IMG/VR virus record: IMGVR_UViG_3300036770_004943
Location: 64,001-128,000 of that record
From: a virus
Length of the DNA stretch: 64,000 nucleotides
Direction: 5' to 3' (one strand)
Part shown: piece by piece, positions 3,072-44,738 of the stretch
Layout: each line of letters opens with the position of its first letter
Numbering within the stretch: position 1 is the first letter of the stretch
Made by a program: the position numbers and the translations under genes
The notes under the pieces: generated by a model
Told to the model about the DNA's origin: nothing
The model's input: the letters and a program-made list of their open reading frames with translations, nothing else
Databases searched by the model: none

Positions 3072-3844
3072 TGTCAACCGAAAAAAAAAGAGGTAGAAAA
3101 CCACAAAAAGATCCTTATTTTGGTTTGGTGGAAGAAACTGCTGTTAAAGAGTTTTTATCATTGGGTGATTTAATTCAGGATCCTAATAGTTTGGAGGGTT
3201 TTAGATGGACAGGAACCACAAAAGAGGAATTTAGACGTAACGAAATTTATAAGTTACATCTACAAGCTCCATTAAACAAAATGATAGAAAGTATTATCAG
3301 AAGATATAAATTATACTCAAAAAATATGTCTTTTGAAGATTTACATTCTGATACACTTTCATTTTTAATGATAAAATTCCATAAATTTAAACCTTCTAAA
3401 GGTAAAAAATCTTACTCTTATTACGGTACCATTTGTAAACATTATCTTTTAGGTAAAATAATTAAAGACGATAAGAAATTAAAAACTTTAATATCTTATG
3501 AAGATGTGGCAAGTGATTTAGAAGAGAATGAAGAATATTCTTACGAAATAGATAATCATGATACAGATTTAAACTACCTTATAGAAGATGTTTGCAACTC
3601 CATTAAACAAGAATTAGAAAATAAAATTCTAACCGAAAATGAAATCAAAGTAGGAAATTCACTAATTTCGATACTAGAAAATTGGGAACGTGTTTTTGAA
3701 GGACGAGACTCAACAAATAAGTATAACAAAAATCTTATATTGTATTATATGAGAGAAATGACATCATTAAATACAAAAGATATAAGAAATGCGATGAAAC
3801 GTTATAAATCGATTTACAAATTTATAAAAGATGGTGGTTTTTAA
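3071..3844 (+). CDS. 55: late-transcription sigma factor, T4 gp55-like
   Basis: 257 aa. The N-terminus has an AT-hook-like basic patch (KKRGRKPQKDP). Residues about 85-135 (MSFEDLHSDTLSFLMIKFHKF, then SYSYYGTICKHYLLGKI) match sigma-70 region 2 as kept in T4 gp55: an FEDL helix, a core-binding helix, 'F.P.kg..SY..Y', and a recognition helix. No region 4 is visible, as in gp55. In T4, gp55 directs host RNA polymerase to a short -10-like late element without a -35. Here it is the natural candidate to read the ATATTTAT element found before structural genes throughout the window. The gene ends in a perfect 24-bp palindrome that looks like a terminator. Confidence 0.75.
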   Translation: MSTEKKRGRKPQKDPYFGLVEETAVKEFLSLGDLIQDPNSLEGFRWTGTTKEEFRRNEIYKLHLQAPLNKMIESIIRRYKLYSKNMSFEDLHSDTLSFLMIKFHKFKPSKGKKSYSYYGTICKHYLLGKIIKDDKKLKTLISYEDVASDLEENEEYSYEIDNHDTDLNYLIEDVCNSIKQELENKILTENEIKVGNSLISILENWERVFEGRDSTNKYNKNLILYYMREMTSLNTKDIRNAMKRYKSIYKFIKDGGF

Positions 3845-19855: not shown

Positions 19856-20530
19856 ATGGAAAAAGGTTACATTTACAAATTAATAGATCCAACAAATAAT
19901 GAATGTAGATATATCGGTAAAACTATACAAAAACTTAAAGTTAGATTATATCGACATTTAAATGATATTGATAAAAGTATTAGCCATAAAAATAACTGGT
20001 TAATTGGTTTAAGAGATAAGGGTTTATTAAACGATGTTAAAATAGAAATTTTAGAAGAATGTGATTTATACATTTTAAACGAACGTGAGGTGTTTTGGAT
20101 TAGTGAGTTTAAAAATAACGGACATAAATTAACTAATCTAACAATCGGTGGTGATGTAGGTTCTATGGGTCATAAACATAGTGATGAGGCTAAAAGGAAA
20201 ATATCTGAGGTTTCTAAAAAAATGGATAGGTCACATATGAGGACTAAAGAATTTAGAGATAAAATTAGTAAATCACTTATTGGTAATAATAGACATAAGG
20301 GATCTAAACATAGTGAAGAAACAAAGAAAAAAATATCTGAAAGTAAAAAAGGTACTGTGAGTTGGAATGCACAGTCAGTTTTACAATTAGATAAAGAAGG
20401 TAAGGTGATAAAAGAGTGGAGGAGTGCTAAATACGCTGCCGAACATCTTGGTTTAAGTCAAGGTAATATTTGGTCAGTAATAAATGGTAATAGAAATAAA
20501 TGTGGTGGTTATAAATGGAAATTAAAATGA
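19856..20530 (+). CDS. GIY-YIG homing endonuclease inserted in the nucleotidyltransferase gene
   Basis: 224 aa. The GIY-YIG nuclease domain is at the N-terminus (GYIYKLIDPTNNECRYIGKT, then the catalytic-type Arg in VRLYRH and Glu in LNEREVFWI). It is followed by NUMOD-type DNA-binding repeats (GHKHSDEAKRKISEVSKK; GSKHSEETKKKISESKKG) and a C-terminal IENR1/NUMOD1-like helix-turn-helix (SVLQLDKEGKVIKEWRSAKY). It lies exactly in the break between the two halves of the tRNA nucleotidyltransferase, so it is the mobile element that split that gene. Confidence 0.9.
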   Translation: MEKGYIYKLIDPTNNECRYIGKTIQKLKVRLYRHLNDIDKSISHKNNWLIGLRDKGLLNDVKIEILEECDLYILNEREVFWISEFKNNGHKLTNLTIGGDVGSMGHKHSDEAKRKISEVSKKMDRSHMRTKEFRDKISKSLIGNNRHKGSKHSEETKKKISESKKGTVSWNAQSVLQLDKEGKVIKEWRSAKYAAEHLGLSQGNIWSVINGNRNKCGGYKWKLK

Positions 20531-37762: not shown

Positions 37763-38562
37763 TTTAATATGTTTTTAAATAAATATCTGTTATTTTCTAA
37801 TGTCACAGATTTATCGTAAGCAACAGTTTTGATGTCTGAAAGTCTATCTAACATGCCGTTTCTCCTCAAAACTTTAAAAACCAAGTTCTCAACAGAAAAC
37901 TCGCCACTTTTATCTAAACCTGCTTGACGCATTTTTTTAATTTTATCCTTAATTTTGTCAGCCTTTTCAACGACAATCTCGTAATTTTTTTCTTTTTTCA
38001 TTTCATCATATAAATCATCAATAGAATCCATTATACGATTTGCTTTTAATTTAACGTTTTTATCATCAACTGTAATACGTTTTTTTTCAGGTTTGATTAA
38101 CCATTCATTATTTAAGATAGAATAAACCCCCGTTGAAACGTGTTCTTCATTAATATCTTGAACATAAAGTTCTACGTCATAACCGTATATTTTAACATCG
38201 TGACTTTGATTCCAAGAAGTACTTTTAGATTTTAAAAAGTCTTGGATTAAAGATTCATCAACTGGTACTTCATCGTAATCAATTAAAATATGTAAATCAA
38301 CATCGGAGTATTGGGACCAATTGTAATTGGCTAAACTTCCAGTAAAAGTAACATCTTCTATATCTAAATTTTCAATACCTAAACTTTCAATATAGTCATC
38401 AGCTATTTTAAGTAAATTTTTTCTAATTTCAGGACGTAGTTTACCACCTTTATCCCATACTCTAGGGTTTAATTTATCCTGCATTTCAAAGCCGGTTAAA
38501 TCAACGTACCTATCACTTTTAGTTATTTTAGTAACTTCCTTTATTTGTACAGTATTTTTCAT
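37759..38562 (-). CDS. Pol-beta-type nucleotidyltransferase with leader-like N-terminus
   Basis: 267 aa. The nucleotidyltransferase signature is clear at about residues 73-90: FTGSLANYNWSQYSDVDLHI (GS followed by DxD), with a third carboxylate likely in GYDVELYVQD. The N-terminus MKNTVQIKE contains I-K-E at 7-9, compatible with the leader class. The C-terminus is helical. Such enzymes transfer a nucleotide to RNA, protein or small molecules; the acceptor is unknown. It has its own late element and overlaps the decoration-like gene by 4 bp. Confidence 0.7.
   Translation of the reverse strand: MKNTVQIKEVTKITKSDRYVDLTGFEMQDKLNPRVWDKGGKLRPEIRKNLLKIADDYIESLGIENLDIEDVTFTGSLANYNWSQYSDVDLHILIDYDEVPVDESLIQDFLKSKSTSWNQSHDVKIYGYDVELYVQDINEEHVSTGVYSILNNEWLIKPEKKRITVDDKNVKLKANRIMDSIDDLYDEMKKEKNYEIVVEKADKIKDKIKKMRQAGLDKSGEFSVENLVFKVLRRNGMLDRLSDIKTVAYDKSVTLENNRYLFKNILK
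37778..37786 (-). promoter_or_regulatory. late element
   Basis: Reads atatttatt (with a leading g) on the minus strand, 15 nt before the start at 37762 and inside the end of the nucleotidyltransferase gene. Confidence 0.5.
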
Positions 38563-38568
38563 CTACAT

Positions 38569-38577
38569 TATAAATAT
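38569..38577 (-). promoter_or_regulatory. late element of the nucleotidyltransferase gene
   Basis: Reads atatttata on the minus strand, 6 nt before the start at 38562. It is back to back with the plus-strand element at 38582. Confidence 0.5.
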
Positions 38578-38581
38578 TCGT

Positions 38582-38591
38582 GATATTTATT
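38582..38591 (+). promoter_or_regulatory. late element
   Basis: Reads gatatttatt, 7 nt before the ATG at 38599; divergent partner of the element at 38569. Confidence 0.55.
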
Positions 38592-38598
38592 AAAAAGA

Positions 38599-38931
38599 AT
38601 GAAAAAGAAGATTATTTTAAAAGAACATCAACTTAGAAAATTAATTGAAACTCGTATTAACGATTTTAATATTGAAGATATTGCAAAACAGTTAGAATCA
38701 ATCGAATGTACAGGAGCTGACTTAAAATATTTGGTTAGTGAGATACTTTCAAAATACGGTTATGAGGATATTAAAGTTCTTTTTTTAGGGCATGAAAAAG
38801 AAACAAAAGAACTTAGATATATTGTGCATACAGAAGGACCTGTTTTAACTTATAAAACAAAATCTGAAGTTACGGCGGATGATAGACCTTGTTTATCTAT
38901 TTACGACGTAAAAGTCTATCAACAAATTTAA
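38599..38931 (+). CDS. small protein with capsid-targeting-like leader
   Basis: 110 aa. The leader MKKKIILKEHQLRKLIETRI contains L-K-E (7-9) and L-I-E (15-17). The remainder is a small alpha/beta domain (LRYIVHTEGPVLTYKTKSEV) with no recognised family. A late, possibly packaged protein. Confidence 0.6.
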   Translation: MKKKIILKEHQLRKLIETRINDFNIEDIAKQLESIECTGADLKYLVSEILSKYGYEDIKVLFLGHEKETKELRYIVHTEGPVLTYKTKSEVTADDRPCLSIYDVKVYQQI

Positions 38932-39020
38932 AATTTACCCCAACCAGAATGCATCATGCATTTGATTCTTTCTTGTTCAAGGAAATCTAAAAATTTTATT
39001 ATTTTTTTTATTGTTTTCAT
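38928..39020 (-). CDS. 30-aa peptide coupled to the lipoprotein gene
   Basis: A short frame (starts MKTIKKIIKFLDFLEQERIK) whose ATG overlaps the stop of the lipoprotein gene (ATGA). It forms a basic amphipathic helix ending in a Met/His/Gly/Trp tail. The overlap geometry and composition support translation, but there is no independent proof. Confidence 0.4.
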   Translation of the reverse strand: MKTIKKIIKFLDFLEQERIKCMMHSGWGKF

Positions 39021-39250
39021 TTTTTATGTTTATTCGATACGGAACATGAATCAAATTTACGACCCCAGTAACTAATTTCACTTTCTTTAAATTGTAGTTC
39101 ATCTTTCATAACATCTATTTCAATTTCCTGTTCTTTTAAGATAACCAATAAAGAGTCGTATTCTTTTTTATAACTTATTTCATATTGTATTGGTTGTGTA
39201 CATTTACAACTTACAAACAAAATTAAAGATAGTAATAATATTTTTTTCAT
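39017..39250 (-). CDS. small lipoprotein, coiled-coil
   Basis: 77 aa. A type II signal peptide (MKKILLLSLILFVSC, lipobox LFVSC with the Cys at residue 15) is followed by a charged coiled coil. The mature protein would be anchored to the outer or inner membrane facing the periplasm. A spanin-like role in lysis is possible, and the membrane-anchored gene at 58647 would be a conceivable partner, but this is speculation. Confidence 0.6.
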   Translation of the reverse strand: MKKILLLSLILFVSCKCTQPIQYEISYKKEYDSLLVILKEQEIEIDVMKDELQFKESEISYWGRKFDSCSVSNKHKK

Positions 39251-39251
39251 A

Positions 39252-39452
39252 CTAATGACCTATGTGTTTTAAGTATTCTTGATAATTCCTTTGAGAAGTG
39301 AGCTGAGCCAAATTTTCATGTATCATTTTAATATAATCTTCGGTGTTCATTCTTCTTTTTTTATATTGGTTTGTTAAAAACTCAATTGATTTTGTAGCTT
39401 CTTGAATTTTAGCTACATTTATTGAACCTGCTTCGTATTTTTTGTTTTCCAT
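39252..39452 (-). CDS. 66-aa helical protein, unknown
   Basis: Mostly helical (NVAKIQEATKSIEFLTNQYK) and basic towards the C-terminus. It begins 3 bp after the thyA stop and ends 2 bp before the lipoprotein gene, so it belongs to the thyA operon. No recognised family. Confidence 0.5.
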   Translation of the reverse strand: MENKKYEAGSINVAKIQEATKSIEFLTNQYKKRRMNTEDYIKMIHENLAQLTSQRNYQEYLKHIGH

Positions 39453-39455
39453 AGT

Positions 39456-40715
39456 TTAATTTGATAAAGGTGCCTTAATTGTTGGGTGTGATTGATAATT
39501 TTCAATAACAAAATCAGTATTATCTAAATGAGTCACTAAAGATACATCTTCAGATAATGATTTATAGAAATCATCAGTTTTCATATGTTTTAATGTTGGT
39601 AATGGATATGGTTCTCTTGTTCGAGTTGGTACTTTTAAGTCATCCAAAAGTAGTGAAGAGATAACCTCTGGTTCATTTAAGTGTTGTGATAACGATGATT
39701 TTGCGTCTTTGTTTGTTTCGAATAATTTTTCTATTCTTTCTATGTGAGTTAATTCTCTACCAATCTGTTCTTTTGCTTGTTCAATATGATTACTATAAAG
39801 GTGTACATCACCGAGATTTCCAATCAATTCATCAGGAACCATATTAACTGCTTTAGCAATGATTTCTAATAACAATCCATAAGAAGCAATGTTGAATGGT
39901 AACCCTAAGAATGTATCTACTGAACGTTGATTCCACATTAAAGAGATTGCTCGTTTAGGAATGTTTAACTCATCATAATTAACTTTAAGTAATTCATCAT
40001 ATGATTTAGTTTCATTCTTTTTCATATAATGTTTTCCGTAATATTCCATTCTTTCAACAACACTCAACTCTCTTGTATAAACTTGAAATCCATAATGACA
40101 AGGTGGAAGTACCATTTGGTCTAACTCTCCAACATTCCAAGCATTCACCATTAATCGTCTTGAGTCTGGATTTGTTTTAAGGTCGTTGATTAGGTTTGCG
40201 ATTTGGTCTACGTCACCATAGTCAGGATAAGCTTTGCGTATTATATCACCATCTTCAATTCCTATTCTTCTAATGGATGGCCACTTTCTCCACTGCTTAC
40301 CATAAATTGGTCCTAATTCACCCCACTTCTTAGCAAACATATCATCTGTTTTGATTTTATTGATGAAGTATTCTTGTGTTAATTGCCTATAAGTATTTTC
40401 TTTATTTTCAACTTCTATGCTATGTGGAGCTTTTTGTTGATAATTCTTATACGCATCACCATCCCAAATATGACAATCGTTATCAACTAAGTACTTAATG
40501 TTTGTATCACCTCTTAAAAACCATAACAATTCTGTTACAATTTGTTTCCAAGCCATCTTTTTAGTTGTAAGTAAAGGAAACCCATCACTCATTTTATGAC
40601 GTATTTGTCTTCCAAATACTGAGATAGTTCCTGTTCCAGTTCGGTCACCTTTGGTATAACCATTATCCAAAATGTCTTTTAGAAGGTTTTGATAATCTAA
40701 GTCTAATTTATTCAT
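39456..40715 (-). CDS. thyA: thymidylate synthase (ThyA) with insertions
   Basis: 419 aa, well above the usual 260-290. It converts dUMP to dTMP using methylene-tetrahydrofolate. Visible are the phosphate-binding Arg in DRTGTGTISVFG, WFLRGDTNIKYL, the catalytic Cys206 in LPPCHYGFQVY, the paired Arg residues in NPDSRRLMVNAWN, RSVDTFLGLPFNIASY and GDVHLYSNH. Extra segments lie near residues 91-125, 213-250 and 325-350, all outside the motifs, so the enzyme should be active. Its 5' end has a near-synonymous second copy upstream of the adjacent homing endonuclease (41595-41651). Confidence 0.93.
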   Translation of the reverse strand: MNKLDLDYQNLLKDILDNGYTKGDRTGTGTISVFGRQIRHKMSDGFPLLTTKKMAWKQIVTELLWFLRGDTNIKYLVDNDCHIWDGDAYKNYQQKAPHSIEVENKENTYRQLTQEYFINKIKTDDMFAKKWGELGPIYGKQWRKWPSIRRIGIEDGDIIRKAYPDYGDVDQIANLINDLKTNPDSRRLMVNAWNVGELDQMVLPPCHYGFQVYTRELSVVERMEYYGKHYMKKNETKSYDELLKVNYDELNIPKRAISLMWNQRSVDTFLGLPFNIASYGLLLEIIAKAVNMVPDELIGNLGDVHLYSNHIEQAKEQIGRELTHIERIEKLFETNKDAKSSLSQHLNEPEVISSLLLDDLKVPTRTREPYPLPTLKHMKTDDFYKSLSEDVSLVTHLDNTDFVIENYQSHPTIKAPLSN

Positions 40716-41439
40716 AATATTTCCATTTAAACTTACCAGCCGTTTCTTGTTTACCTTTACAAACCGCTGATATATTGTATATTTTTAAAAAATTTTCAGC
40801 CTCTAAAATAGAATCCCATATTTTTACTATTTTATCATCTATTGTTAATTGTACAACTTTTTTTCTAGATTTAGAAGGCCCATTAGATACCCCTTTTTTA
40901 ATTTTTGAAAGTTTTTCTGAAAAACCTTTTGGTTTTGGTTTTTTCATTTTATTTCTTGTTTCTTGGGTAATAATTTTACCTTTTTGTGCTTCTGAGATTT
41001 TTTTTCTAACTTCCTCAGTTTGAGACCAACCATTTAACATTTTTATTTTTTGATACTCAGATATTTTTTGTTTCCACTCACGATGTTTTTTATCAGCCTC
41101 TTCTTTACCATATTTTTCTAACCAAGTTTTATACCTACCTTTTTTTATAAGAGAATTGTACCCTAATTTTCTATCACCTTCTTTACTACCATCACTTATA
41201 TTATAACCTATTTTTCTATCTGTTGATTTATAATAAAGTATCCAAAAAATTTCTCTTTCATTTAACATCTCTTCACTATCACAAACCTCAATCACCTCTT
41301 TTAAAAAATTATTTTTACCATATTTTTTAACAGCTCTTTTTAATTTTTTACCGGAACCTAAATAATTTGGGTTATTATTTTTGTCTTGTCCGATATAAAT
41401 TTTATTGTTTATCAGATTTGTTGTTTTGTATATTACCAT
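40708..41439 (-). CDS. GIY-YIG homing endonuclease upstream of thyA
   Basis: 243 aa. The nuclease domain opens the protein (MVIYKTTNLINNKIYIGQDK; Glu in LNEREIFWILYY), followed by NUMOD-like repeats (WSQTEEVRKKISEAQKGKII, TQETRNKMKKPKP) and a C-terminal DNA-binding segment (KKVVQLTIDDKIVKIWDSIL). Its stop overlaps the thyA start by 8 bp. Together with the small frame upstream it forms an insertion of about 0.9 kb at the fourth-to-twentieth codon region of an ancestral thyA. Confidence 0.88.
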   Translation of the reverse strand: MVIYKTTNLINNKIYIGQDKNNNPNYLGSGKKLKRAVKKYGKNNFLKEVIEVCDSEEMLNEREIFWILYYKSTDRKIGYNISDGSKEGDRKLGYNSLIKKGRYKTWLEKYGKEEADKKHREWKQKISEYQKIKMLNGWSQTEEVRKKISEAQKGKIITQETRNKMKKPKPKGFSEKLSKIKKGVSNGPSKSRKKVVQLTIDDKIVKIWDSILEAENFLKIYNISAVCKGKQETAGKFKWKYYE

Positions 41440-41599
41440 CTTTTTTATTAGATAAATATGTTCTGTCTTTTTTTTGTACTACATTATTTTCTAATTTATT
41501 ACGAAGATCTATACTAAAACTACCATTTATACATTCGGTACCGAATATCATATCCATGTTATCCTCCAAATATTTTTCAATATTTTTTTCTTGTTCCAT
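41402..41599 (-). CDS. 65-aa protein within the thyA-linked insertion
   Basis: Charged and Asn/Lys-rich (MEQEKNIEKYLEDNMDMIFG). Its ATG lies within the thyA remnant, and its 3' end overlaps the endonuclease start by 38 bp. Unknown; it may be a chance frame created by the insertion. Confidence 0.35.
   Translation of the reverse strand: MEQEKNIEKYLEDNMDMIFGTECINGSFSIDLRNKLENNVVQKKDRTYLSNKKDGNIQNNKSDKQ
41451..41459 (-). promoter_or_regulatory. late element of the thyA-linked endonuclease
   Basis: Reads atatttatc on the minus strand, 11 nt before the start at 41439. Confidence 0.45.
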
Positions 41600-41651
41600 T
41601 TTCTAATATATCTTTAAGAAGATTTTGATACTGTAGATCCAGCTTGTTCAT
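41595..41651 (-). pseudogene. remnant 5' end of thyA (19 codons)
   Basis: From an ATG at 41651 the frame reads MNKLDLQYQNLLKDILENG, differing from the start of the intact ThyA at only two residues (D7Q and D17E). Most codons nevertheless use a different third base. Homology ends sharply at the NG codons, where the endonuclease insertion begins, and the frame stops five codons later. It overlaps the 3' end of the KTSC gene, as the intact thyA start presumably once did. Confidence 0.8.
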
Positions 41652-41934
41652 TTAATATTTGTGTTACGTTGTTTAACAATTCTGTAGGGTCAATATCAGG
41701 GTTTTTAACAGTTGGGTATTTTTTAATGTACTTATTAAAAATTTGTCCCTGACTTTCCGCCATTTCAAAACGATGGTAGTCTTTATAATCTACACCAGAA
41801 TAGGTATATTGACGACCAGCGTTAAAAGTTATGGTTAATTCTTTTTTTTCTTGATTATATTTTGAGGCCAAAATATTTGACGATTTAAATAAACAAGAAA
41901 CTGTATTTCCTTCTTCTATTCTTTGAATAAACAT
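41614..41934 (-). CDS. KTSC-domain protein
   Basis: 106 aa. The pattern SSNILASKYNQEKKELTITF, then FNAGRQYTYSGVDYKDYHRF and AESQGQIFNKYIKKYP is the KTSC domain (normally 'SS.I...gYd.....L.V.F..G..Y.Y..Vp...y..l..A.S.G.Yfn..I'). KTSC is a small domain often fused to or near RNA/DNA enzymes; biochemical role unproven. Its stop overlaps the start of the upstream 63-aa gene's transcript order, and its 3' end overlaps the thyA remnant. Confidence 0.75.
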   Translation of the reverse strand: MFIQRIEEGNTVSCLFKSSNILASKYNQEKKELTITFNAGRQYTYSGVDYKDYHRFEMAESQGQIFNKYIKKYPTVKNPDIDPTELLNNVTQILNEQAGSTVSKSS

Positions 41935-42125
41935 TAGTTAATGTAAGTTTTCCATGTTTTTATACCATCTAAATGGTGTACTTGTGTTGTAACTTCTGTA
42001 CTATCATCATTGTGAATAGATAAGATTAGGTAATTTCCTGAAATAGTAACACTAACTCTTTCAAAGTCTGTGGCGATAACTGAACCGTTATCTTTGAACC
42101 ATATTGTAACTCTTTTATATAACAT
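41934..42125 (-). CDS. 63-aa beta-rich protein, unknown
   Basis: Beta-strand pattern (RVTIWFKDNGSVIATDFERV, then NYLILSIHNDDSTEV). Its last base overlaps the first base of the KTSC gene (TAATG), so the two are coupled. No recognised family. Confidence 0.5.
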   Translation of the reverse strand: MLYKRVTIWFKDNGSVIATDFERVSVTISGNYLILSIHNDDSTEVTTQVHHLDGIKTWKTYIN

Positions 42126-42221
42126 AATTTTTATTTTAAAACTAATAATTTAAGGGTTAAAAGAAAACTTTTCTTTCGTATAATTTTAAATATATTTTAA
42201 TCAGTAAATAAATTATTAGTA

Positions 42222-44738
42222 ATGAAAAAAATGACATCTAATATGAAAACCGTTGTCAGGGAATCTTTTAAAGAAACTTTAAGATTGGGTGACAATAAAA
42301 TAAAACCAGAACATTTGATTTTAACAACTTTATTGGTTAAAAACAACGAAGTGACCCAAGTGTTAAACGAAATGGGTTCTGATGTTGATGATTTAGCAGA
42401 AAAATTAGAAAGTTATTTGAGAATTAAAGTAAAAAACCCTAATATTGTAGAACCTAAAATTATACCTTTAAATGTTTCCTCAAAAAACGCTATTAGTTCA
42501 GCGGAACTTGAGGCTGACAAATTAAAAGATGATTTTATTGGTGTCGAACATTTATTTTTATCTATTTTAAAAAATAAATCATTAGACGGCACAAAAGTTT
42601 TAGGAAATCAGGGTATTACCTATAGAACTTTTAAAGAAACTTTAGTACATTTAAAAAAACAAAAAATAATGAATATGACAGGAGATTTTGAAGAAGTAGA
42701 CGATTTGGGTAAAAGAGCTAAGAAAGCCGCCCAAGGGAAATCAACAACACCAATCCTTGATAATTTTGGTAGGGATATCACAAAATTGGCTTCAGACGGT
42801 CAAATTGACCCAATTATTGGTCGTGAAGATGAAATTGAACGTGTTTCACAAATTCTTTCAAGACGTAAAAAGAATAACCCAATTCTAATTGGTGAACCAG
42901 GTGTTGGTAAAACCGCGATTGTTGAGGGTTTGGCGCTTAAAATTGTTGAAAGAAAGTGTCCACGTATTCTTTTTGATAAAAGAGTCGTTAGTTTGGACTT
43001 GGCATCATTGGTCGCAGGAACTAAATACCGTGGTCAGTTTGAAGAAAGAATGAAAGGTATCATGCAAGAACTTGAAAAGGCGGATGATGTAATTCTTTTT
43101 ATAGATGAAATCCATACAATGGTTGGTGCGGGTAACGCTTCAGGTTCACTCGACGCATCTAACATTTTAAAACCGGCTTTAGCTCGTGGTGAGGTTCAAT
43201 GTATCGGGGCTACAACTCTTGATGAATATAGACAAAACATTGAAAAAGATGGGGCTTTGGCAAGAAGATTCCAAATGGTTATTGTTGACCCACCGTCAAA
43301 AGATGAGACTTTGGTTATTCTTAATAACATTAAAAATAAGTATGAAGACCATCACAAAGTTTCTTACACTAAAGAAGCCATTGAATCTTGTGTAAACTTA
43401 GCTGACCGTTACATTAGTGACCGTGAACAACCCGATAAAGCAATTGATATTCTTGATGAAGTTGGTGCTAGAATGCAAGTTCACATTAAACCACCACAAG
43501 AAATTGTAGATCTTGAAGAAAAAATTGCAGATGTGGGCCGTCAAAAAATAGATGTTGTTAAAGCTCAACGTTATGAAGATGCCGCTAAACTTCGTGATGA
43601 AGAAAAAACTCTTCAAGAAGAATTAGAACATTCCACAAATGAGTGGGCTAAAAATTTAGATAAATTCAGACCTACTGTTAATGAAGAAGATGTTGCGAAA
43701 GTTGTTTCAATGATTACAGGTATTCCTGTGACTAAAGTTTCCCAAACTGAAAACGAAAAACTTCGTAATATGGATAAGGAATTAAAACACAAAGTTATCG
43801 GTCAAGACGAGGCTATAGATAAAATCAGTAAAGCAATTAAACGTAATCGTGTCGGGATTAAAAACAAAAATAAACCAATCGGTTCTTTTATGTTCCTAGG
43901 TCCAACTGGTGTAGGTAAAACTTATTTAGCTAAAATGTTAGCTGAAAGTATATTCGGTTCCCAAGACGCACTTATCCGAGTTGACATGAGTGAGTATATG
44001 GAAAAACATTCAGTATCTAAATTAATCGGAGCACCTCCAGGTTATGTTGGATATGAAGATGGTGGTCAGTTAACTGAAAAAATCAGAAGAAAACCGTTTT
44101 CAGTAATTCTTTTAGATGAAGTTGAAAAGGCTCACCCTGATACTTTTAACATATTGTTACAAGTTTTAGATGATGGTCATTTAAGTGATGGTTTAGGTCG
44201 TAAAGTTGACTTCAAAAATTGTCTTATTATCATGACTTCTAACGTTGGGGCACGTAAATTACAAGAATTTGGTACTGGTGTTGGTTTTGGTACTAAATCT
44301 AAAATGGACGGTAATGACGAAGTGGCGGAAGGTGTAATCCAAGACTCACTTAAAAAGGCTTTTTCACCTGAATTTTTAAACCGTATTGATGATGTAATCG
44401 TTTTCAAGTCACTTGGTAAAGAAGAAATTAAGAAAATTGTTGATATACCACTTATCGAGGTTATTGAAAGGGTTAAAGAAATGGGTTATACACTTAAAAT
44501 TGATGACACTCTTAAAGAATACTTGGTTGAAAAAGGGTATGATGAGAAATATGGAGCTAGACCTCTTAATAGAGCAATCCAAAAGTATGTAGAAGACCCA
44601 ATATCTGAAAAAGTACTAGAAAATGAACTTAGTATTGGTGATACGGTAACAATATCTTATAACTCTAAAGTTGAAGATGTTAAAATTAGTATCAAAAAAG
44701 CTAAAAGCACTAAGAAAAAAGAAGATACTGGTGAATAA
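42222..44738 (+). CDS. clpC: ClpC-type AAA+ unfoldase
   Basis: 838 aa, full length. The N-domain has two Clp_N repeats (residues about 1-145). AAA-1 has Walker A GEPGVGKTA, Walker B VILFIDEIHTMVG and GALARRFQ. A UVR-like coiled coil (AQRYEDAAKLRDEEKTLQEEL) marks ClpC rather than ClpA/ClpB. AAA-2 has Walker A GPTGVGKTY, VILLDEVEKAH and the arginine finger in FLNRIDD. A GVGF loop after SNVGARKLQ matches the ClpP-docking loop of ClpC, so it may use host ClpP to degrade chosen proteins. Codon use is host-like. No obvious promoter of either class is seen in the 96-bp upstream gap. Confidence 0.93.
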   Translation: MKKMTSNMKTVVRESFKETLRLGDNKIKPEHLILTTLLVKNNEVTQVLNEMGSDVDDLAEKLESYLRIKVKNPNIVEPKIIPLNVSSKNAISSAELEADKLKDDFIGVEHLFLSILKNKSLDGTKVLGNQGITYRTFKETLVHLKKQKIMNMTGDFEEVDDLGKRAKKAAQGKSTTPILDNFGRDITKLASDGQIDPIIGREDEIERVSQILSRRKKNNPILIGEPGVGKTAIVEGLALKIVERKCPRILFDKRVVSLDLASLVAGTKYRGQFEERMKGIMQELEKADDVILFIDEIHTMVGAGNASGSLDASNILKPALARGEVQCIGATTLDEYRQNIEKDGALARRFQMVIVDPPSKDETLVILNNIKNKYEDHHKVSYTKEAIESCVNLADRYISDREQPDKAIDILDEVGARMQVHIKPPQEIVDLEEKIADVGRQKIDVVKAQRYEDAAKLRDEEKTLQEELEHSTNEWAKNLDKFRPTVNEEDVAKVVSMITGIPVTKVSQTENEKLRNMDKELKHKVIGQDEAIDKISKAIKRNRVGIKNKNKPIGSFMFLGPTGVGKTYLAKMLAESIFGSQDALIRVDMSEYMEKHSVSKLIGAPPGYVGYEDGGQLTEKIRRKPFSVILLDEVEKAHPDTFNILLQVLDDGHLSDGLGRKVDFKNCLIIMTSNVGARKLQEFGTGVGFGTKSKMDGNDEVAEGVIQDSLKKAFSPEFLNRIDDVIVFKSLGKEEIKKIVDIPLIEVIERVKEMGYTLKIDDTLKEYLVEKGYDEKYGARPLNRAIQKYVEDPISEKVLENELSIGDTVTISYNSKVEDVKISIKKAKSTKKKEDTGE

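Follow-up and report, generated by a model that had tools for sequence, protein, structure and literature searches.

The window examined here is a 64,000-nucleotide stretch of viral DNA (positions 64,001 to 128,000 of IMG/VR record IMGVR_UViG_3300036770_004943). It belongs to a 130-kb virus record, and the closest named relatives of its thyA gene are those of Flavobacterium phages. The locus of interest reads on the minus strand in the order KTSC-domain gene (41614-41934; PF13619, E 1.7e-13), displaced thyA start, 65-aa open reading frame (41402-41599), GIY-YIG homing endonuclease gene (40708-41439, 243 aa) and thyA (39456-40715). The last gene encodes a full-length thymidylate synthase of 419 aa (PF00303, E 8.8e-91) in a single continuous frame 3' of the nuclease, and its product contains the active-site sequence PCHYGFQ. 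The two genes overlap by 8 nt, with the stop codon of the nuclease situated inside the start of thyA (TATGAATAAA). The first part of thyA, at 40659-40715 (minus strand), appears to be an element-borne replacement 5' end that is divergent over at least codons 1-12 and up to codon ~19. A TATTTAT motif resembling a promoter is located at 41452-41458 (minus strand), 13-19 nt 5' of the nuclease ATG. The same motif is found 5-40 nt 5' of 22 of the 53 window ORFs of at least 120 aa and is likely a phage promoter motif. Its presence before both the nuclease ATG and these large ORFs makes it appear that the element brings or keeps a phage promoter.

The initial annotation of this DNA had reported a 57-nt remnant of thyA upstream of the GIY-YIG gene, and our analysis confirmed it at 41595-41651 (minus strand), where it covers codons 1-19. 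The encoded peptide (MNKLDLQYQNLLKDILENG, then TRKKY and a stop) is identical to the start of ThyA at 17 of 19 residues, and the DNA identity between 41596-41651 (remnant) and 40660-40715 (thyA start) is 75%. The remnant corresponds to the beginning of the intact thyA of empty-site relatives in the sister lineage. When all 71 window ORFs of at least 80 aa were subjected to a duplication test, thyA alone had an N-terminal duplication no more than 2.5 kb upstream of its own gene (tblastn E 3.5e-10), indicating that the remnant is not a chance match. The homology had also been described as stopping dead at the NG codons. This description does not hold, as a deletion of 15-24 nt after NG is followed by a degenerate stretch matching thyA codons ~30-40. 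The 65-aa ORF lies between the remnant and the nuclease gene and overlaps the nuclease start. Its first ~22 codons are the +1 reading frame of the displaced thyA codons 18-40 (KYLEDNMDMIFGTE versus QYLEDNSDMIFGTD). Its differences from empty thyA fall mostly at the third position of the +1 frame (3, 2 and 11-13 by position). Of three dN/dS estimates, two are 0.19-0.25 and one is 0.92. This ORF may have arisen as a new gene in an alternative frame of the thyA remnant.

The window nuclease matches phage homing endonucleases (phrog_314, E 5.7e-35), and a profile built from 11 of its relatives matches the catalytic domain of I-TevI (1ln0, E 2.8e-6). Pfam matches to GIY-YIG, SegE and NUMOD3 were all under the gathering score, with the GIY-YIG model narrowly missed, and GIY relatives in named phage records are all less than 60% identical. 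On these matches the enzyme is grouped with the free-standing Seg-like enzymes, which have a GIY-YIG nuclease domain with NUMOD-type DNA-binding repeats, and it resides in neither an intron nor an intein: no Rfam match to an RNA family or intron was obtained within 38500-42400 and the thyA frame is continuous. Seg-like genes are intergenic and have a distant cut site, whereas comparison with empty sites places this gene within thyA codons ~20-28. A second GIY-YIG-like ORF is present in the window at 19856-20530 (plus strand; profile match E 3.9e-18), with no next-gene remnant detected.

A search with the KTSC protein retrieved two contigs, L114 and L116, in which the KTSC gene joins an intact thyA directly with no nuclease between them. 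This is the empty site that the initial annotation had predicted, a KTSC gene followed immediately by a remnant-like thyA. Further empty thyA sites were found in L123 and L124, and the Immutovirus phages cultured on LMO8 likewise have a thyA free of interruption. L114, a single contig that ends in or near the element and could be a chimeric assembly, is 99.82% identical to occupied L111-type phages over 5,684 bp of left flank; the occupied phages near-identical to it come from several metagenomes (L111, L112, L110, L113, L115 and L088). The remnant of the L111-type phages (MSKIEQQYLNLLKDILENG) corresponds to the thyA start of L114 and L116 with 94-96% DNA identity. Their rebuilt thyA (MNKLDLDYQNLLRDILENGTKKETRNGGT) is only 70% identical to the empty site over codons 1-18 and 63% identical to L114 over nt 1-81 (to codon 27), after which 99 of 99 bases agree to the end of L114; the L085-type new 5' end shares this switch at nt 81. 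The more distant L116 is empty too, so acquisition of the element is a more parsimonious change than its loss. L084, likewise a single contig ending in or near the element and possibly chimeric in assembly, has ~82-85% identity to L083 and the window's virus in the left flank and then 100% identity over more than 800 bp, beginning at remnant nt 17, crossing the nuclease gene and reaching the end of the contig. L084 thus appears to record a recent transfer of the element between phage lineages, and a switch point within the remnant would suit a role of the remnant as left homology arm. The L114/L111 tract and the L084 transfer bear out the earlier proposal that the cassette brought a replacement thyA 5' end with it. 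For the window's own sub-lineage, a pattern search for the empty site returned occupied contigs only.

The chimeric nature of thyA was further evaluated across occupied phages. Element-borne codons 1-18 share 85-93% identity among L026, L069 and L085, compared with 62-67% for the thyA bodies of the same phages. The more two nucleases differ, the more their thyA 5' ends differ too (rho 0.32-0.44, p 0.05-0.02), a trend not seen for the thyA bodies (rho 0.06-0.08). A permutation test of excess 5' similarity was not significant across all occupied lineages (p 0.13) and reached p 0.01 only for five lineages picked post hoc.

The same arrangement recurs at other genes. Nucleases related to that of the window (L093-L098) precede a phage gene of 171 aa, which they likewise overlap by 8 nt, and a remnant of the start of this gene is also present. 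Phages in which this site is empty (L128-L130) read MDNKLPITRLGKF..., in agreement with the occupied remnant, and comparison of L129 (empty) with L093 (occupied) indicates replacement to codon 12 at 47% identity, followed by 90% identity. In a scan of 61 non-redundant nuclease/next-gene pairs at a threshold of E<1e-3, 15 had, upstream, a remnant of the start of the gene that follows, as did 2 of the 336 control pairs (p 1e-11). Genes with both nuclease and remnant include thyA, the 171-aa gene, translation initiation factor IF-3, a HAD/polynucleotide-kinase-like gene and others; a separate scan also found remnants at an uncharacterised 111-aa gene (L256) and a glycosyltransferase-like gene (L243).

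Several other ORFs were observed at thyA. Short non-nuclease ORFs directly 5' of thyA in L019 (3114-3705), L022 (4376-5017), L026 (3722-4087) and L090 (3633-3926) open with the thyA N-terminus and continue into unrelated sequence; they may represent cargo that entered together with such a 5'-end duplication, or what is left of elements since lost. The remnant-like thyA starts of L019 and L022 were considered as empty remnants and rejected, as they begin such short ORFs with no nuclease, and both contigs were left out of the nuclease-case counts. In L013 the C-terminus of a DUF7487/TnsA-like endonuclease (3618-3839) overlaps the thyA start, which encodes the unusual N-terminal protein sequence also present in nuclease-bearing L092; the 5'-end trick may be shared by another type of nuclease. 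Other GIY-type ORFs, in L091 (1414-2133), L100 (5001-5867) and L226 (2739-3635), split thyA further downstream (~codons 92-110, mid-gene), and in L226 the start of the second thyA piece resembles the sequence 5' of the nuclease.

At the level of sequence, these comparisons demonstrate the insertion, the displaced remnant, the rebuilt gene, the transfer tract and the recurrence. We consider it highly probable that the window contains a mobile free-standing GIY-YIG homing element that targets the conserved 5' coding region of thyA and whose own 3' end is fused to a divergent replacement for the thyA codons 5' of the cut. During mixed infection, an empty thyA would be cleaved by the nuclease near the DRTGTGT codons. 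Repair would then proceed from the occupied phage, with the KTSC gene and remnant providing left homology and the thyA body providing right homology, in keeping with the crossover tracts present in the compared sequences. The recipient would gain the nuclease gene together with a new 5' end restoring full-length thyA, and the old 5' end would stay upstream as a dead remnant, both of which are evident in the occupied contigs. The divergent new 5' end would probably confer immunity to the element's own nuclease, and divergence between the two copies would hinder deletion of the element by recombination between them; both effects are expected because the new 5' end has only 54-76% DNA identity to the old one and usually carries an altered DRTGTGT.

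The position of the break bears directly on the proposed immunity. Remnants in relatives extend to the codons for DRT/DRTGT, a conserved thymidylate-synthase motif at codons ~23-28, and end there: directly after KKDRTGT in L026, RKGDRTGT in L213 and L214 and KQDR in L090, and with KKDRN in L092 and SDRR in L069. Entry of the cassette into the 5' coding region of thyA, as first proposed, is thus upheld, but the breaks in relatives do not agree with entry near codon 19. The proposal of a synonymous replacement likewise stands in part, as the new 5' end is divergent but in most relatives alters the protein, with ETRNGGT-type sequence in place of DRTGTGT in the rebuilt gene. By approximate lineage counts, DRTG is lost in 9 of 11 nuclease-linked thyA lineages versus 9 of ~79 unlinked ones (p 3e-6). 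The remnant breaks off, the protein sequence changes and the replaced tract ends at one and the same place, which suggests the DRTGTGT codons as the putative cut site, and we infer that the new 5' end resists cleavage in a gene that we assume to be essential. TRNG-type thyA was also observed with no adjacent nuclease in nine lineages (L005, L014, L017, L047, L049, L068, L118 and L121 among them), so that the motif change is not unique to occupied loci; these genes are candidate natural resistant alleles or sites of element loss.

The window thyA is an exception, being of the L020 type (resident-like) from ~nt 38 and keeping GDRTGTGT. The DNA here is close to the resident form where the cut is presumed to fall, so the window itself is the case in which immunity is least clear. 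Binding of the enzyme may depend on the recoded codons 1-12, the site may have been restored by a later recombination event, or the immunity may be incomplete. The retained motif also suits the alternative that survives best, which we regard as unlikely though deserving serious consideration: the mobile element is the same, but its new 5' end has no cleavage resistance, protection comes from splitting of the target by the insertion, and divergence only restores the gene and avoids repeat recombination. Splitting of the target site is how group I introns achieve self-protection, and the present insertion does part remnant codons 1-20 from codon 28 onward. However, the rebuilt gene would regenerate a continuous site unless altered, and the approximate lineage counts for loss of DRTG favour an altered site.

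Retention of DRTGTGT in the window could also be accommodated by an ordinary intergenic endonuclease of the T4 Seg type with a distant cut site, for which the remnant would be an unrelated recombination junction and the 5' replacement passive co-conversion. T4 free-standing enzymes cleave at distances of hundreds to thousands of bp from the genes that encode them and co-convert the flanks (PMC2988022). An intergenic insertion would leave no remnant, yet remnants recur across several genes. In several lineages, and in two genes, the codons at which the remnant breaks off are also those at which the replaced tract ends; we judge this explanation improbable. There is very little to recommend a tandem duplication of the thyA 5' end with subsequent insertion of the nuclease between the copies and drift in the dead one. 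The copies are in direct orientation and an unselected remnant would diverge, but in L111-type phages the copy matching the empty site (94-96%) is the dead remnant. The live copy has 70% identity to that site over codons 1-18 and 63% over nt 1-81, whereas drift in the dead copy would predict the opposite. The live 5' end moreover resembles those of other occupied phages (85-93%), and the L114/L111 and L129/L093 pairs largely refute this scenario. Weakest of all, and close to negligible, is a degraded group I intron or split-gene arrangement like that of T4 td, for although thyA/td is a classic home of GIY-YIG introns and thyA is split further downstream in some relatives (L091, L100, L226), the region 38500-42400 has no Rfam match to such a self-splicing, exon-joining RNA, the full 419-aa thyA frame runs uninterrupted 3' of the nuclease, and the two copies, one on either side of the nuclease gene, cover identical codon positions and are not complementary exons.

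The nearest precedents for the thyA element are the fungal mitochondrial mORFs and the Tremella introns, of which mORFs with terminal gene duplications are the closest known system. Such mORFs, which duplicate the terminus of a host gene, occur at atp6 of Allomyces and at atp6, atp9, cox2 and nad3 of Glomus (PMC3630166). They similarly place an endonuclease ORF in a conserved gene, complete that gene with a diverged terminus and displace a native terminus that remains near the sequence of relatives (PMC3630166). The L111-type phages share the property that the element-borne in-frame terminus (70%/63%) is more diverged than the displaced one (94-96%). The mORFs differ in being mitochondrial, mostly LAGLIDADG and located at the 3' end (PMC3630166), the duplication affecting the carboxy terminus, while the phage element encodes a GIY-YIG enzyme, duplicates the 5' end and resides in a virus record. 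Mitochondrial introns of Tremella fuciformis described under 'N-terminal duplication' also carry a duplicate host-gene fragment and cause partial foreign gene replacement, but their fragment lies at the intron 5' end and duplicates the following exon, and several are present in cDNA (PMC7315562). The phage element has no intron and a phage host, and its fragment is a gene start fused behind the nuclease. The T4 Seg enzymes are likewise GIY-YIG, non-intron and situated among overlapping phage genes, but are intergenic and cut at a distance (PMC2988022); the passages of that review covered here describe split genes and no replacement 5' end. In the open-access literature, with subscription papers mostly outside the scope of the search, no description of 5'-end replacement in phages was found. 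Synthetic home-and-rescue (HomeR) gene drives are alike in placing a nuclease at its own cut site in a needed gene with a re-coded, cut-resistant rescue piece that limits back-recombination (PMC7968924). HomeR is an engineered CRISPR drive with a re-coded 3' end in Drosophila (PMC7968924), whereas the phage element is natural, acts at the 5' end and uses a protein nuclease.

On balance we lean, with some reserve, towards a broader reading in which these form a widespread and hitherto undescribed class of selfish phage elements acting as natural home-and-rescue drives. GIY-YIG nucleases would be directed against conserved 5' codons of thyA, IF-3, the conserved 171-aa gene, the kinase/phosphatase-like gene and others, and a cleavage-resistant 5' end locked to the nuclease stop codon would allow selection on the gene to protect the element. 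Free-standing homing endonucleases of phages are thought to avoid damage through their intergenic position; the thyA element would instead enter coding sequence and repair it with a diverged copy. This would explain how conserved coding sites can be occupied without an intron and would provide a natural counterpart to engineered home-and-rescue gene drives. The 5' ends of phage genes would be exchangeable in single events, which misleads gene trees, and the matched empty and occupied sequences open the question of self-immunity to direct testing.
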